Positions 6,589 to 33,005 of a DNA stretch of 33,021 nucleotides are shown here, piece by piece. The position numbers were made by a program, and so were the translations under genes. Under the pieces are notes generated by a model. The model was given only the letters and a program-made list of their open reading frames with translations, did no database searches and was not told the DNA's origin. Origin of the DNA: an uncultured Verrucomicrobiales bacterium (GTDB lineage Bacteria > Verrucomicrobiota > Verrucomicrobiia > Limisphaerales > UBA1100); assembly GCA_913042895.1 (NCBI GenBank), contig CAJWMQ010000012.1:1-33021 (forward strand), written 5' to 3'. How positions within the stretch are numbered: position 1 is the stretch's first letter; each line of letters begins with the position of its first letter.

Positions 6589-7797
6589 TTGGGGAGGCGT
6601 TTTCTCATTTTGGCGATCGGGCTGTGTCATGCTTTTGGGGCATGGGCTGCCTTTCAGGTATCCCTGCTGAATTCTCCGGAACCGATCATGGTAAAACGGG
6701 TGGCGTCGGTAAATGAAGGTGGCTTGGTTTTTAGTCGAGTCTTAGGGAAATCAGATTTCAAACGCTACCACTGGGGAGAGTTTTCTTTAAAAGGCACGCA
6801 AACCCTTATCGCTGAATTGCCGGGACAATCGGTTTTCCGCCAAAAAAGTAAAACGGATCAAAGCTGGTTCATGGATGCTCTGCGCAACCAAATGCTCAAG
6901 CTCATGCCCCCGCCTGCGGTGGAGGAAGTGGTGCCCCCGCCGGTGATCGCCCTCCAGCAACCGCGCAAACCGATTGCTCAACCACTCTCCCCACCAGAGC
7001 CTGCGCCTGTTTTGCCTTCACCTCCAGTGGTGGCAAAGCCTGAAAAGGGACCTAGAGTAGTTCCACCTCGAAACGTGAACGCCAAACCGGCGGTTATTGC
7101 GGAAAGGCCATTGAAGCACACTGTTGCCCAGCAAGAGCCGCCAAGAAAAGCGCACCCGAAAAATCAGCACACAAAGCCGTTTAATCTGATTCCCGGTCCA
7201 AATATTTTGCCGCCTGACACTGAATCCGCCACGGAGGGTAAGGCTGGCTTGTGGCTTATTGCGTTTATTATAATGAGCCTCAGCGCTTGGGCCGGGTACG
7301 AAGTGGCCGTTTTCCGGAATCGGCCAGTAAAATTGGTGTGCCTGCTTTCCGCCTTATGCCCTGTGATTGTTCCTGTAGTGTTCCTGATTTGGCCAGAACC
7401 GGTTGATGAGATCGAGGAAATGCAGCTGACTGCTTATAGCCCGGCGCCAGACATGGCCAATATCGAAGATGCTACTCATATCACAGAACTCGATACGCGT
7501 ATGGAAACTGAGGTGGAGACTGCGACCCAAATACATGAATGCTATCGTGCCGAGGAAACTCGATTCAGCGGCAAATTTTTTGCCGATTATTTGGCGCGCT
7601 TTTACAAGGAGCCTCCCGAGGACGGCCGAGCCTTGGTGTTAACCACCGAAAAAGGTGCGTATCCCGTCCATCACATCAGCGATCTTTCACCGGAGAGCAT
7701 GAGCATTGTCTACCCCTCACAAGAGGGCCTAGCTGAAACCTCCATTCCTTACCGTCACCTGCAGGAAGTGCGGGTTCAGACAGTTCAAATTTTATGA
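6589..7797 (+). CDS. Hypothetical proline-rich membrane protein (signal peptide, Pro-rich linker, two TM helices, C-terminal beta-rich domain)
   Basis: ORF with a hydrophobic N-terminus, Pro-rich tract (PPPAVEEVVPPPVIAL...PPEPAPVLPSPP), two TM segments (GLWLIAFIIMSLSAWAGYEVAVF; LVCLLSALCPVIVPVVFLIW) and C-terminus IVYPSQEGLAETSIPYRHLQEVRVQ. TTG start assumed; the stop overlaps the adk-like start by 4 nt. Confidence 0.75.
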   Translation: MGRRFLILAIGLCHAFGAWAAFQVSLLNSPEPIMVKRVASVNEGGLVFSRVLGKSDFKRYHWGEFSLKGTQTLIAELPGQSVFRQKSKTDQSWFMDALRNQMLKLMPPPAVEEVVPPPVIALQQPRKPIAQPLSPPEPAPVLPSPPVVAKPEKGPRVVPPRNVNAKPAVIAERPLKHTVAQQEPPRKAHPKNQHTKPFNLIPGPNILPPDTESATEGKAGLWLIAFIIMSLSAWAGYEVAVFRNRPVKLVCLLSALCPVIVPVVFLIWPEPVDEIEEMQLTAYSPAPDMANIEDATHITELDTRMETEVETATQIHECYRAEETRFSGKFFADYLARFYKEPPEDGRALVLTTEKGAYPVHHISDLSPESMSIVYPSQEGLAETSIPYRHLQEVRVQTVQIL

Positions 7798-11442: not shown

Positions 11443-12683
11443 GACTTGCCCTGCGAATTGGTTTGCCACTTTTAGCACTCACCTTCGGAGTGGGTGGGGC
11501 AGTATGGTTGGTGGCTCATAAAAAATCTATCGAGCCCGTGCCTCAAAAAAAAATACCGCCGCTAATTGAAGTGGTTGAGGTGACGTTGAATAATTACCAG
11601 CCGGTTATTCGTTCTCAAGGTCGTGTTTTGCCGCGTCGGGAAGTGTCTGTTATGCCGAGAGTTGGAGGGGAGGTTGTCGAGGTGTCGGCAAAATTGAATG
11701 AGGGTTTTCTGGTTGATGTTGGTGAGATTCTGGTGCGAATCGATGAAGAGGATCATCGTTTAAACCTTCGGCAGGCAGAGGCGGATATTCTTTCGGCTAA
11801 AGCCTCGATGACCAGTGGACTGGCGCAATTAGCCAATGCTCAGGCGCAAGCACGTCAAGCGGAGGCCCGCTTGGCCACTGAGCAGGCTGAGGCTGACGCT
11901 GCTAAAAAGGAATGGCGATTACTTGGAAAAACTGGCAGTCCACCCACATTGCTGTCGCGCGAGCCTCAAATTCGCGAAGCACGTTCAGCTATTGCAGCTG
12001 CCGTGGCCTTGGTAGATTCTGCTACTGCAGGAATTGAATCCGGAAAGGCCTCATTGGCTGCGGCAGAAGCAGCAAAGGAGCGGGCGTTGTTAGATTTGAA
12101 ACGCTGTATTATTCGTGCGCCATTTAATGCCCGCGTTGTGCGCAGTACGGTAGATTTAGCTTCCACGGTCTCACCGGGCGGCGCAGTCGCTGTATTACAG
12201 CGGATTGATTTCGCGGAAGTTAGGTTACCCTTGTCACGACGGCAAATGAACCTGCTTGGCTCCATTTCTGAGGCCAAAAAGCACCTCATACATCTAACAA
12301 ATGGCACTCGGAAATGGTCAGCAAAATTCGAACGCATGCTGGGTGAAGTTGATGCAGCCACCCACACGCAAAGCGTCATCGCACTGGTGGAGAACCCATA
12401 CACTTCGGGGAATGTAACCCTGGAATTTGGAGCTTTTGTATCCGCGGAAATGCACGGGGAAATGTTAAAGAATGTAACGGTTATCCCGGAACTGGCATTG
12501 CAGCAAAATGAGGAAGTGTATTTGTTGAATGATGGAAAGCTAACCGCGAAACCTGTTCGTGTCATTGAACGTAACCAAGGCGAAGTTTTTGTGACCGGCC
12601 TAAATGCCAAAGAGTACGTGTGTGTGACGCAATTGGACTCTTTTGTGAGTGAGATGAGTGTGCGTGTACGAAAGGGGGACTGA
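11439..12683 (+). CDS. RND efflux periplasmic adaptor (membrane fusion protein)
   Basis: N-terminal TM anchor, RSQGRVLPRREVSVMPRVGGEVVEVSAKLNEGFLVDVGEILVRID, long coiled coil, then CIIRAPFNARVVRSTVDLASTVSPGGAVAVL. GTG start overlaps the upstream stop by 4 nt. Confidence 0.93.
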   Translation: MRLALRIGLPLLALTFGVGGAVWLVAHKKSIEPVPQKKIPPLIEVVEVTLNNYQPVIRSQGRVLPRREVSVMPRVGGEVVEVSAKLNEGFLVDVGEILVRIDEEDHRLNLRQAEADILSAKASMTSGLAQLANAQAQARQAEARLATEQAEADAAKKEWRLLGKTGSPPTLLSREPQIREARSAIAAAVALVDSATAGIESGKASLAAAEAAKERALLDLKRCIIRAPFNARVVRSTVDLASTVSPGGAVAVLQRIDFAEVRLPLSRRQMNLLGSISEAKKHLIHLTNGTRKWSAKFERMLGEVDAATHTQSVIALVENPYTSGNVTLEFGAFVSAEMHGEMLKNVTVIPELALQQNEEVYLLNDGKLTAKPVRVIERNQGEVFVTGLNAKEYVCVTQLDSFVSEMSVRVRKGD

Positions 12684-22177: not shown

Positions 22178-22537
22178 ATGGACAGTTCTTTTATTGATTT
22201 GATGTTTGCGATGGCGCCACCTCCAGGTGATGGCCAACAAGGGGGCGGAGCTCAATGGATTTCCTGCCTGATGCCGGTCGCATTTCTGGGTATTTTTTAT
22301 GCTCTCCTGATACGCCCGCAACAGAAGCAACAAAAGGAACACGAGAAACTTGTTTCCGAGCTTAAGAGCGGCGATCGCGTCGTGGCTGCCGGTATGGTTG
22401 GCACTATCATCACGGTGAAGGATGATTCTGTGACCCTGCGCACCGGTGAATCTAAGATTGAAGTTGTGCGAACTTCGGTTGAGCGCGTGATCACTGAGGG
22501 CGATGGGCCTGCCTCCCTTGATCTTAACAAAAAATAA
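22178..22537 (+). CDS. yajC: Preprotein translocase subunit YajC
   Basis: PVAFLGIFYALLIRPQQKQQKEHEKLVSELKSGDRVVAAGMVGTIITVKDDSVTLRTGESKIEVVRTSVERV. Start ATG at 22178 preferred over TTG at 22127. Conserved tgt-yajC-secDF order. Confidence 0.95.
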   Translation: MDSSFIDLMFAMAPPPGDGQQGGGAQWISCLMPVAFLGIFYALLIRPQQKQQKEHEKLVSELKSGDRVVAAGMVGTIITVKDDSVTLRTGESKIEVVRTSVERVITEGDGPASLDLNKK

Positions 22538-22553
22538 CAACCAGATTTTCTTC

Positions 22554-25163
22554 ATGCAGAAACAACCCACATTCGGCCGCTTCCTGCTCGTTGCATTCCT
22601 CGCGGTCTGGACGTTGAGCGAATGGTATCCGCCGCAAGGCAAAAACATGATCGAGGTCTTCGATCAAACCGCCCAAGTCAATCAGGACACCATCGTCGCT
22701 GATCTCAAAGAGGCCAGTAAAGATCTTCGCGAAGGAGATGAGCTTTCCTTGGAAACATGGATGACCGCCGTCGGTGATGTTGATTTACGAGAGATTTTCC
22801 CGGGACAAACTAATGGCATTCTCAAAGAGCTTAAGATTGAAAAAGAGGCTTGGGTCACGCCATCAGAGGAACAACAGGCGCAAATAAACCGTGAGATTCT
22901 TGCTCGTATCCAAAAGGATTCGGTTGGGAAAGTGAAGCTCGGCCTCGACTTAAGGGGCGGTACGCAATTCGTCGTACAAGTTAAGCCGAAGCTTGATGAG
23001 AAAGGGGAGCCGCTTTCCATTGACGAGAGCCAACTGACGCAGGCCATGGAGATCATGAGGCGGCGTGTTGACAAGTTCGGTGTTGCTGAGCCCATGATCC
23101 AAACTGCTGGTGAAGACAAAATCATCATACAAGTCCCAGGCCTTTCTCAGGCAGACCGCGATGACGCCCGCCAAACCATTTCGCAGGTGGCTAAGCTGGA
23201 GTTTCGTTTGACTCATCCAGAAAGTGATGCGCTGGTAGCAAGGCAGGAGGAATTTGTGCCAGGCGCGGAGCTGATGTCTTATGACCTAGACGGTCGCAAG
23301 GTGAGCCATTTTGTCTTGAAGGATGTGGCCATGGCTGGCAGTCACATTAAACGAGCCAGTGCTCGCCGCAACGACCTCACTGGAACGCCTGAAATTCACT
23401 TCACTCTGGACGCGTTAGGTGCCAATAAATTTGCTAAAGTAACCGAGACGCATGTGGCCAGTGGGGCGGACCCACGACTGCTCTGCATCGTGCTTGATGG
23501 CGAACTGATTTCCGCACCCTCGATTAACAGTCGGATTCATTCCCGAGGCCAAATAACCGGCAGCTTTTCCGATGAGGAAGCCACTATGTTGGCAAACTCT
23601 TTGGAGAATCCACTTGAAAACGAAGTGGCTATCATAGAGGAGCGCGACGTGGCTCCATCGCTTGGTCGAGACTCCATTCGTAAAGGTTACAAGGCCGCGC
23701 TCTGGGGACTGATAGGTGTCGCTATATTCATGGTGATCTACTATTTGCTGAGCGGCGTACTGGCCAACTTTGCATTGACCCTCAACATTGTGATGATTCT
23801 CGGAATTCTGTGCTGGTTTGATGCCACACTCACATTGCCGGGCATTGCTGGCGTGGTACTCACGATCGGCATGGCGGTGGATGCTAATGTGCTGATCTTC
23901 GAGCGTATCAGAGAGGAGCTGCGCGTGGGTAAATCTGTGAGGGGAGCCATTGCCTCCGGTTACGACAAGGCTTTTGGAACAATCTTTGACGCCAACATCA
24001 CCACGCTAATCGCCTCAATTATCCTGATCTACATGGGTAAAGGCCCGGTGAAAGGATTTGGTGTAACGCTGACTATTGGCATTCTGACCAGCATGTTCAC
24101 CGCACTGGTGGCCACACGATTGATTTTCGATCTTCTGGCTAACGTGAAGGTGCTAGGTAGCGATGACTCCAAGCGCATGCTTCATCTGCGTCCTTCGGCC
24201 GGTTTGCCGGAATTTGATTTTTTGAAATACGCCAAGCCCGCGTTCATCGCTTCGTGGATTTTGGTGATCATTGGATTTGGTTACGGCCTCTCGAAAGGTA
24301 AAGACAGCATGCTCGGTGTAGACTTCGCCGGAGGTTATAGCATGGTCATGAAATTTGAGCAGAATCAAATCGATCAAATTAACCAGGCCATTGATTCAGG
24401 CAGCCTCCGAGATAACCTTGTAGGGGACACTGGAATTGACGGCGGCCAAATTCAAACCGAGCTGCAGGCTGAGGCTGCTACGGGCGAGCAACGATTGCGG
24501 GTGGATTTTCCGTATGACGCAGACGCTAAGGAGGTTGAGGGCTCCCTCAAAACGAAATTTGCGGAAGCCAATCTGGAACGGATTCAACTAGATAAAGTGG
24601 GCCCCAGTGTTAGCGGAGAAATCCAGAAATCCGCCTTTATTGCGGTTGTGCTGGCCTTGTTTGGTATCCTTGTTTACGTGGCATTTCGCTATGAATACTC
24701 TTTTGCGGTGGCGGCGGTGGTAGCCATTCTCCACGATGTTGCGATGACCGGTGGTTTGTTCTTCCTAACTGGGCGTGAGCTAAACGCTCCGATTGTGGCG
24801 GCGGCCTTGACGATCATTGGTTTCTCCATCAATGACACCATCGTGATCTTTGACCGCATCCGAGAAAACCTTCGAATGGGCACGCGAGGCTCATTTAAGG
24901 ATGTAATGAACACGGCCCTTAACCAGACGTTGAGTCGGACAATTATTACTTCCGGCACTACATTGCTTTCCACCGGAACGCTGTATTTCTTTGGCGGCAC
25001 TGTGATTAATGATTTCGCCTTCACTTTCCTGGTCGGCGTGATTACCGGTACTTATTCCTCGATCTACATTGCTTGCGCCATCGTACTTTGGTGGCACAAG
25101 GGTAAGCGACCGGAATTGGCTGCACCGACCGTTGATACGGATCCAGTGGGCGTCACCTCCTAG
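22554..25163 (+). CDS. secDF: Fused protein translocase subunit SecDF
   Basis: GLDLRGGTQFVVQV, MRRRVDKFGVAEPMIQTAGEDKIIIQVPG, CIVLDGELISAPSINSRI, GMAVDANVLIFERIREEL, then the SecF half GVDFAGGYSMVM and TIIGFSINDTIVIFDRIRENLR. Confidence 0.97.
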   Translation: MQKQPTFGRFLLVAFLAVWTLSEWYPPQGKNMIEVFDQTAQVNQDTIVADLKEASKDLREGDELSLETWMTAVGDVDLREIFPGQTNGILKELKIEKEAWVTPSEEQQAQINREILARIQKDSVGKVKLGLDLRGGTQFVVQVKPKLDEKGEPLSIDESQLTQAMEIMRRRVDKFGVAEPMIQTAGEDKIIIQVPGLSQADRDDARQTISQVAKLEFRLTHPESDALVARQEEFVPGAELMSYDLDGRKVSHFVLKDVAMAGSHIKRASARRNDLTGTPEIHFTLDALGANKFAKVTETHVASGADPRLLCIVLDGELISAPSINSRIHSRGQITGSFSDEEATMLANSLENPLENEVAIIEERDVAPSLGRDSIRKGYKAALWGLIGVAIFMVIYYLLSGVLANFALTLNIVMILGILCWFDATLTLPGIAGVVLTIGMAVDANVLIFERIREELRVGKSVRGAIASGYDKAFGTIFDANITTLIASIILIYMGKGPVKGFGVTLTIGILTSMFTALVATRLIFDLLANVKVLGSDDSKRMLHLRPSAGLPEFDFLKYAKPAFIASWILVIIGFGYGLSKGKDSMLGVDFAGGYSMVMKFEQNQIDQINQAIDSGSLRDNLVGDTGIDGGQIQTELQAEAATGEQRLRVDFPYDADAKEVEGSLKTKFAEANLERIQLDKVGPSVSGEIQKSAFIAVVLALFGILVYVAFRYEYSFAVAAVVAILHDVAMTGGLFFLTGRELNAPIVAAALTIIGFSINDTIVIFDRIRENLRMGTRGSFKDVMNTALNQTLSRTIITSGTTLLSTGTLYFFGGTVINDFAFTFLVGVITGTYSSIYIACAIVLWWHKGKRPELAAPTVDTDPVGVTS

Positions 25164-31446: not shown

Positions 31447-32502
31447 TCAGCGGAAAATCAGCAGATCCATATGCCGCTGGCCTTTGCTGGTGAAGACCCA
31501 TTGCTGGCCTTTTGGGAAGACCAGACCACTGCATGGATGCTTCCGTCGAACATCGGCATCCACGTTGAGAATCTCATATTTTACTGTTTTCTTTAGCTTC
31601 GGATCACGAACTGGCGTGGCACGGATTGGAATCCCGGAGAAACTCAAATCCAAGTCCCAAGCATCCGGATCATCAGCTACTTCAGGGTTTTCAACAATCA
31701 ACTCAGTGAATCGATCGAGCCAATCGAGCTTCGGTCGATGCACGCGCACCCGGCAGAGAACGGGAAGTGCGCTAAGGTATGGAACCATCTCAAACTGTCC
31801 GGCATGATCCTGTCTCAAGATTTCCGCAGCATCCAAGCCAAGCAGGTTCAGGCCATTCCACTGGCCATGAAGATTCTTGCCATCGCGATACCAATGCTTA
31901 AACCAGCCGTTGAAGTGGCTATTAATTTGCAACCCGATTTCAAAATGCAAATGAGCACGCCATGAAGCAATGCCATCGGAATAATTAGTGGTGCGGCCCA
32001 GTACCCCCAGTTCGTCACCGCCAGCGATATCTTGTCCAATCTTGAGTTCGTCGTGAACGGATCTCAGGTGGGCGTAAAGAGTGTAAAACGGAACCCCGTT
32101 TGCTTCATGTGCTACCACCACGTATTTTCCGTAATTGGATGCAGCCGTGTTGTGATTGATATGAACGATGCGGCCAGCCGCCGCTGCACGAACAGGATCA
32201 ATAGGCTCCTCATTCTCATCGCGTTCTATGCTGAGGATATCAATCCCTTCATGCAGGCGCGTGCCACTGTTTCGCACACAGCCAAATGAACCACTCGACC
32301 AAGGGCGCACGGTGGTGGTCGGCGCGAAGAATTGTCCCTCCGCATTCTGCTTTAACAATGAATGGTTGTCGGTTGGAAATTGAAACCAACGCTTCGACTT
32401 CGTTGGTAATGACTCTACGGGTTCATTAACTGGGGGAGCAGTGTGAGGCTTGCAACCCGTTAACCAGACAACTAAAGCGATGCCCCAGAACGTGCGAATC
32501 AT
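31447..32502 (-). CDS. M23-family metallopeptidase, predicted lipoprotein, with uncharacterised C-terminal extension
   Basis: Lipobox VVWLTGCKP; LytM/M23 motifs LHEGIDIL (HxGxD), VVVAHEANGVPFYTLYAHLRSV, GVLGRTTNYS, AHLHFEIGLQ (HxH). Coupled to the upstream gene by a 4-nt ATGA overlap. Confidence 0.9.
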   Translation of the reverse strand: MIRTFWGIALVVWLTGCKPHTAPPVNEPVESLPTKSKRWFQFPTDNHSLLKQNAEGQFFAPTTTVRPWSSGSFGCVRNSGTRLHEGIDILSIERDENEEPIDPVRAAAAGRIVHINHNTAASNYGKYVVVAHEANGVPFYTLYAHLRSVHDELKIGQDIAGGDELGVLGRTTNYSDGIASWRAHLHFEIGLQINSHFNGWFKHWYRDGKNLHGQWNGLNLLGLDAAEILRQDHAGQFEMVPYLSALPVLCRVRVHRPKLDWLDRFTELIVENPEVADDPDAWDLDLSFSGIPIRATPVRDPKLKKTVKYEILNVDADVRRKHPCSGLVFPKGQQWVFTSKGQRHMDLLIFR

Positions 32503-33005
32503 TGTAGCGTTTTATTAAGCAATTCCACCAAACGCTCCACCTCGGGGCGTTCGGCATCCGGAGTAAACTGCATAGCCTCAGCCTGAATTGTTTGCCGAAT
32601 ATAAGCTGCCCCGATGCAACGGCTGTTCACACCATTGGTTTGGCTGCTATCGGATTGCGCCGCAACAATGAATAACCGGCGATCTCGGTGATATGTGGTC
32701 AGCTCCTCCATTAAACGCTGTCCGCGCGTGGTGAAGTTGAGCTGCATCACAAATAGACCATCCGGAGAATCCACCAATTCCGCGCTATTTAGCATCCCGC
32801 TATTTGCGACCAAAACCGGCCGGGGTTGTACCGTCACCTTGGTGGGGTTGGCCCGGTAATAACTCATTTCCAGCACCTGAACTCCCGGCTGGGCGAATTC
32901 CTCTATATAAAACGCTAACTCAGCCTTATCTTTTCGGACTTCCAGGGGGTAGTTGCATCCAACCAATGATAAAGCCAAACCCAAAGCTCCCGAAATCCAA
33001 CGCAT
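32499..33005 (-). CDS. Small lipoprotein with a sequence pattern resembling the SecD P1 head domain
   Basis: MRWISGALGLALSLVGCNYPLEV (lipobox LVGC) then PVLVANSGMLNSAELVDSPDGLFVMQLNFTTRGQRLMEELTTYHRDRRLFIVAAQ...AAYIRQTIQAEAMQFTPDAERPEVERLVELLN. The ORF is also open from 33014. Confidence 0.75.
   Translation of the reverse strand: MRWISGALGLALSLVGCNYPLEVRKDKAELAFYIEEFAQPGVQVLEMSYYRANPTKVTVQPRPVLVANSGMLNSAELVDSPDGLFVMQLNFTTRGQRLMEELTTYHRDRRLFIVAAQSDSSQTNGVNSRCIGAAYIRQTIQAEAMQFTPDAERPEVERLVELLNKTLQ

Follow-up and report, generated by a model that had tools for sequence, protein, structure and literature searches.

A lipid-anchored relative of the SecD P1 head encoded beside an M23 peptidase gene in Verrucomicrobiota

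What does a protein resembling the P1 head of SecD do when it is encoded by itself, as a lipoprotein? The question is raised by a gene in a 33,021-nucleotide stretch of DNA (contig CAJWMQ010000012.1 of assembly GCA_913042895.1, positions 1 to 33,021; hereafter the window) from an uncultured Verrucomicrobiales bacterium (GTDB lineage Verrucomicrobiota; Verrucomicrobiia; Limisphaerales; UBA1100). The gene, P0001, occupies positions 32499..33005 of the minus strand, with its ATG at 33005 and its TGA at 32499-32501, and the opposite (+) strand of this stretch is crowded with stops. A preliminary description of the window had given the same open reading frame and a length of 169 aa, a figure that counts the stop; the protein has 168 aa. 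Its N-terminus, MRWISGALGLALSLVGC, is a lipoprotein signal, and the signal peptide and lipobox (LVG-C, with Cys17 and Asn as the +2 residue) were read from the sequence at 32955..33005 on the minus strand. The lipobox cysteine is kept in 95 of 109 aligned relatives, L024 being among the exceptions, and P0001 combines the two features of a bacterial lipoprotein, a signal peptide and a lipobox cysteine that is conserved in relatives.

Pfam and profile searches placed a SecDF P1-head-like domain at residues 52-164 of P0001 (32514..32852, minus strand). The search against the Pfam SecD P1-head family, which the preliminary description had proposed as a check, gave an above-background match: SecDF_P1_head (PF22599) was the sole Pfam match of P0001 (E=1.7e-5), and its 25.1 bits lie just under the curated cut-off of 27, which makes P0001 by itself a borderline case. 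When 30 relatives were searched singly, 22 matched PF22599 (E<=0.1, best E 1.9e-9), and the best-scoring member, L048, exceeded the gathering score of 27 bits with 37.9 bits. A phmmer search of the PDB with the P0001 sequence alone returned no match; a profile of 30 family members (alignment A2) matched the P1 domain of Thermus SecDF (3aqo, 6.5e-7; 3aqp, 1.8e-6), with no other PDB match below 0.08. Alignment of A2 with 20 SecDF heads (A3) by hhalign gave a probability of 97.5% and E=8e-12 over 100 columns. In the reverse direction, a SecDF-head profile was searched against 3,556 ORFs from the fetched neighbourhoods, and all 40 matches at E<0.01 belonged to the P0001 family.

It is very improbable that a small alpha/beta lipoprotein has come to look like a P1 head by chance or convergence. 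Such an explanation could draw on the score of P0001 alone, which is under the Pfam cut-off, and on the AlphaFold model, which was built from a shallow alignment of four near-identical sequences (the window and three loci, 87-95% identity) and reached a pLDDT of 34. Against it, the independent profile searches concur, and chance resemblance was rejected on the reciprocal search. As judged from these profiles, the domain is descended from, or shares ancestry with, the SecD P1 head, which agrees with the proposal made by eye in the preliminary description, whose quoted sequence motifs were all found in P0001.

The P0001 family and the SecD/SecDF P1 head (PF22599; Thermus 3AQO/3AQP) share, besides the significant profile matches, a common order of segments: dl..A, a strand ending F-x-x-x-G, 'le..T', 'rrL.iv', 'AP.I', and 'FT..EA..iv..L'. 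Unlike the head of SecDF, members of the P0001 family stand alone, are lipid-anchored and ~20% identical to it, and have a longer loop ahead of the 'AP' motif. The 'AP' region reads CIGAAYI in the genus of the window, whereas most P0001 relatives have WLAAPxI. The family has no P1 base, transmembrane segments, SecD_1st, or GG motif, and P0001 does not qualify as a SecD translocase subunit, as defined by a six-helix membrane domain, the SecD_1st and GG motifs, and the TIGR01129 cut-off; its NCBIfam match to SecD is weak (TIGR01129, 12.6 bits against a cut-off of 244.4). The lipid anchor and the absence of translocase parts, both claimed previously, are supported.

P0001 is present in one copy in its own genome, and named close relatives are from Verrucomicrobiales MAGs. 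Relatives were found in 54 of 58 sampled genomes (34 of the 35 good ones), and the profile search recovered the lipoprotein in 139 of 144 genomes of the order; it is a single-copy core gene. The sampled genomes include many MAGs broken into contigs; genes were counted as open reading frames rather than from annotation, and lineages are described by their GTDB rank with respect to the window. P1-head-like matches were also observed within very large open frames of the same class, some of which hold two (G024:C31:26190 in a 1393-aa frame; G031:C391:2805 and 3699 in a 1352-aa frame; G099:C28:450236 in a 2640-aa frame; G068:C4:26736 and 27723 in a 1449-aa frame). In addition, several short frames have strong SecDF_P1_head matches (E 1e-17 to 1e-26) and are far nearer to SecD than the P0001 family is: G118:C20:83159-83455 (170-aa frame), G288:C117:9367-9645 (168-aa frame), G238:C50:1107-1433 (229-aa frame), and G240:C18:10764-11051 (228-aa frame, near its own SecD at 12475). 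They are possibly a second set of stand-alone heads.

Directly behind the lipoprotein gene lies a gene that was absent from the preliminary description, P0002 (31447..32502, minus strand), which encodes a 351-aa M23 peptidase with a lipobox of its own (LTG-C, Cys17). P0002 matched Peptidase_M23 of Pfam with E=2.3e-14 and 53.8 bits (cut-off 28.7), and its catalytic domain (residues 84-190; 31933..32253, minus strand) contains H84-x3-D88, H145, and H184-x-H186. These active-site residues are kept in 49-50 of 50 aligned partners and are invariant in alignment A4. With a score above the Pfam cut-off and both zinc-ligand motifs, H...D and HxH, P0002 is by its residues a catalytically intact M23 peptidase, the activity of which is predicted. 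No NCBIfam equivalog attains its cut-off for the M23 partner. The stop of the lipoprotein gene overlaps the start of the M23 gene in an ATGA (32499..32502, minus strand), an arrangement of translational coupling.

The pairing extends far beyond the window. Counted at one representative locus per family, the M23 gene is found within 5 kb of the lipoprotein gene in 19 (HMM) or 20 (BLAST cluster) of the 21 families of the order, and the next neighbour clusters after M23, its antisense shadow aside, occur in 10 and 9 of the 21 families. The neighbour cluster seen in 10 families may itself be a shadow cluster. At the level of the class, where loci were gathered both via the lipoprotein and via M23, a P1-like gene stands directly upstream in 65 of 88 loci of the M23 subfamily, 27 of the 65 with a 4-base overlap. 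The pairs were also found at loci chosen through M23 alone, with the upstream protein identified afterwards. One genome, G160, yielded neither gene at the thresholds used, which also fits a partnership. The most diverged upstream proteins were identified only by profile iteration, Pfam being weak for some and blind to others, and the outermost members are therefore less certain. Elsewhere in the phylum, outside this class, the 18 loci of the M23 subfamily that were checked have no detectable P1-like neighbour, which suggests that the partner joined M23, or stays detectable, solely in this class. No fusion of the lipoprotein and M23 genes was found among the 3,556 neighbourhood ORFs. Both this and the unpaired M23 loci outside the class weigh against a partnership. 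In other orders of the class, a gene for a small protein starting MEWQ or MDWQ (~160-190 aa, without a signal peptide) was repeatedly observed immediately upstream of the P1-like/M23 pair (L160, L161, L162, L181, L186, and L189).

The pairing also has its exceptions, which count against a partnership. Some 15 P1-like loci have no neighbouring M23 gene, and f49 genomes carry both genes on different contigs. In G027 and G176, the lipoprotein is kept and no M23 of the subfamily is detectable; in G039, an intact lipoprotein gene lies beside a decayed M23 gene with five in-frame stops (G039:C24:53912-54538; L050 downstream of 8218). The lack of a partner in G012 is uninformative, as the contig ends at the M23 gene there. 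Genomes that keep the lipoprotein without M23 would suit a P1-head-like fold of general use in binding peptides or glycans or in localisation, which recruits components of the septum or growth zone and has M23 as one client among several; the P1-head-like domains found in very large proteins from this order would suit it too. However, the frequent 4-base coupling with one M23 subfamily argues against this explanation, as does the conservation of the next neighbour in just 9-10 of 21 families, and we regard it as unlikely.

Could the lipoprotein instead serve secretion? In SecD, the P1 head bears a pocket that binds substrate and makes contact with PpiD, a chaperone-like factor of the periplasm (PMC11470409); a SurA contact has been predicted (PMC9987972). 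By homology with this substrate-binding part, an anchored P1 head might catch polypeptides leaving SecYEG/SecDF, perhaps as a periplasmic chaperone, with the adjacency of M23 being incidental, and the broad retention of the lipoprotein as a core gene would fit such a role. However, an ordinary SecDF is separately present. In the window, secDF (22503..25163, plus strand), with a P1 head of its own at 23298-23606, served for comparison and lies outside the lipoprotein/M23 module, 7 kb from the lipoprotein gene, and 38 of 40 relatives likewise have a separate SecDF with its own head. The sec genes show no conserved link to the lipoprotein gene: secDF is close only in the window's own family and lies on other contigs in other families of the order (for example, contig C50 vs C4 in G026, C61 vs C27 in G024), and an operon link with secDF was rejected on these grounds. 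The conserved and coupled neighbour is M23. A role as accessory secretion factor is accordingly doubtful, and the class-wide adjacency to the M23 gene, with frequent co-translation, indicates that the lipoprotein is probably a partner of the enzyme. The suggestion of the preliminary description that it is an accessory envelope factor is reasonable as regards the envelope and unsupported as regards secretion.

We therefore favour, with a probability of roughly 0.55, the reading that a peptidoglycan endopeptidase has the lipid-anchored protein as its partner, and that this protein reuses the fold of the SecD head. The lipoprotein gene would open an envelope operon of two translationally coupled genes, the second of which would encode an active M23 (LytM-type) peptidoglycan endopeptidase. 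The two proteins would most likely bind each other in the periplasm, where the surface with which the P1-head fold binds polypeptides would engage the enzyme, or a segment of it, rather than a secretion substrate. In this way, the lipoprotein might tether to a membrane an enzyme that is mostly soluble otherwise, and set the place or timing of its cutting. A tether fits the partners outside the window's family, most of which have a plain signal peptide without a lipobox, whereas the lipoprotein usually has one. In the window's family, most genomes encode an M23 partner with its own lipobox, which would make a tether unneeded there; together with the loci that have no adjacent M23, this argues against a strict tether. 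The contrast between an M23 lipoprotein in the window's family and a plain secreted enzyme elsewhere indicates that the anchor appears to have been gained or lost within the order.

The region upstream of the lipoprotein gene holds a further element in many relatives. MISL RNA (Rfam RF03079, 751 positions) lies there just upstream of the lipoprotein gene in head-to-head orientation, for example at L032:4747-5690 (-), L047:6531-7287 (-), L051:2854-3602 (-), and L135:6445-7204 (+), among others; in the window's own locus, this region is beyond the window, as the contig ends there. A model-spanning MISL match was found in 72 genomes of the order sample. It is divergent from, and 215-1144 bp away from, the lipoprotein gene in 38 of the 72 genomes (15 families), one lipoprotein coordinate in these distances coming from a partial match. 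It is not so placed in 32, and a further two have no detected lipoprotein. Some of the 32 unlinked cases reflect contig breaks (e.g., G021); in G332, whose genome is a single contig, the two are genuinely apart. Beyond the order, MISL was found on other contigs or distant from the pair. An apparently conserved upstream gene (cluster cl0) was discarded, as it consists of shadow ORFs antisense to the MISL RNA. RNase P RNA (6860-7267) was observed directly after MISL RNA in L149, and an Acido-Lenti-1 RNA (2678-2724) adjoins it in L051. The MISL linkage looks like an old and often kept arrangement, and is suggestive of regulation of the operon. No paper on the function of MISL was found in the literature searched, and the recurrent head-to-head placement provides, in the present analysis, a first gene neighbour whose link to this orphan RNA can be tested. 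A broader reading, in which a detached, lipid-anchored SecD head is the dedicated regulator of M23 in a class-wide cell-wall module of Verrucomicrobiota, sharing a promoter region with MISL at the order level and possibly being regulated through it, is offered tentatively.

M23 endopeptidases that work with envelope regulators are known from EnvC/FtsEX, NlpD, and DipM, of which EnvC and NlpD are degenerate. The arrangement proposed here would resemble them in joining an exported M23 enzyme to a membrane-linked protein partner. In contrast to the degenerate EnvC and NlpD, the present enzyme retains HxxxD...HxH, and the proposed partner differs from those of all three systems in being a SecD-head-like lipoprotein. 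SpoIIQ, an M23-like protein, works with the GerM lipoprotein in sporulation, and this pairing of an M23-type protein with a small alpha/beta lipoprotein may be likened to the present one by analogy only; the domain family is different and the sporulation setting is absent here.

Neither the domain nor the class of enzyme is new. What the libraries do not appear to describe is the stand-alone, lipid-anchored form that is fixed as a class-wide core gene next to a single M23 subfamily. No named family of Pfam or NCBIfam matches P0001 above its cut-off. Searches of the open-access literature found no account of a P1-head lipoprotein standing alone, nor of its pairing with M23 in Verrucomicrobiota, which is weak evidence of novelty, and the main text of an essential-gene paper on V. 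spinosum mentions neither the lipoprotein nor the M23 pair.

Peptidoglycan hydrolases need restraint, and the means by which Verrucomicrobiota control them are poorly known. A core lipoprotein, single-copy and co-translated with one M23 peptidase across a class, offers a concrete candidate for a factor dedicated to such control. If this is true, the SecD head, known solely within a secretion motor, would be able to serve as a free binding domain.
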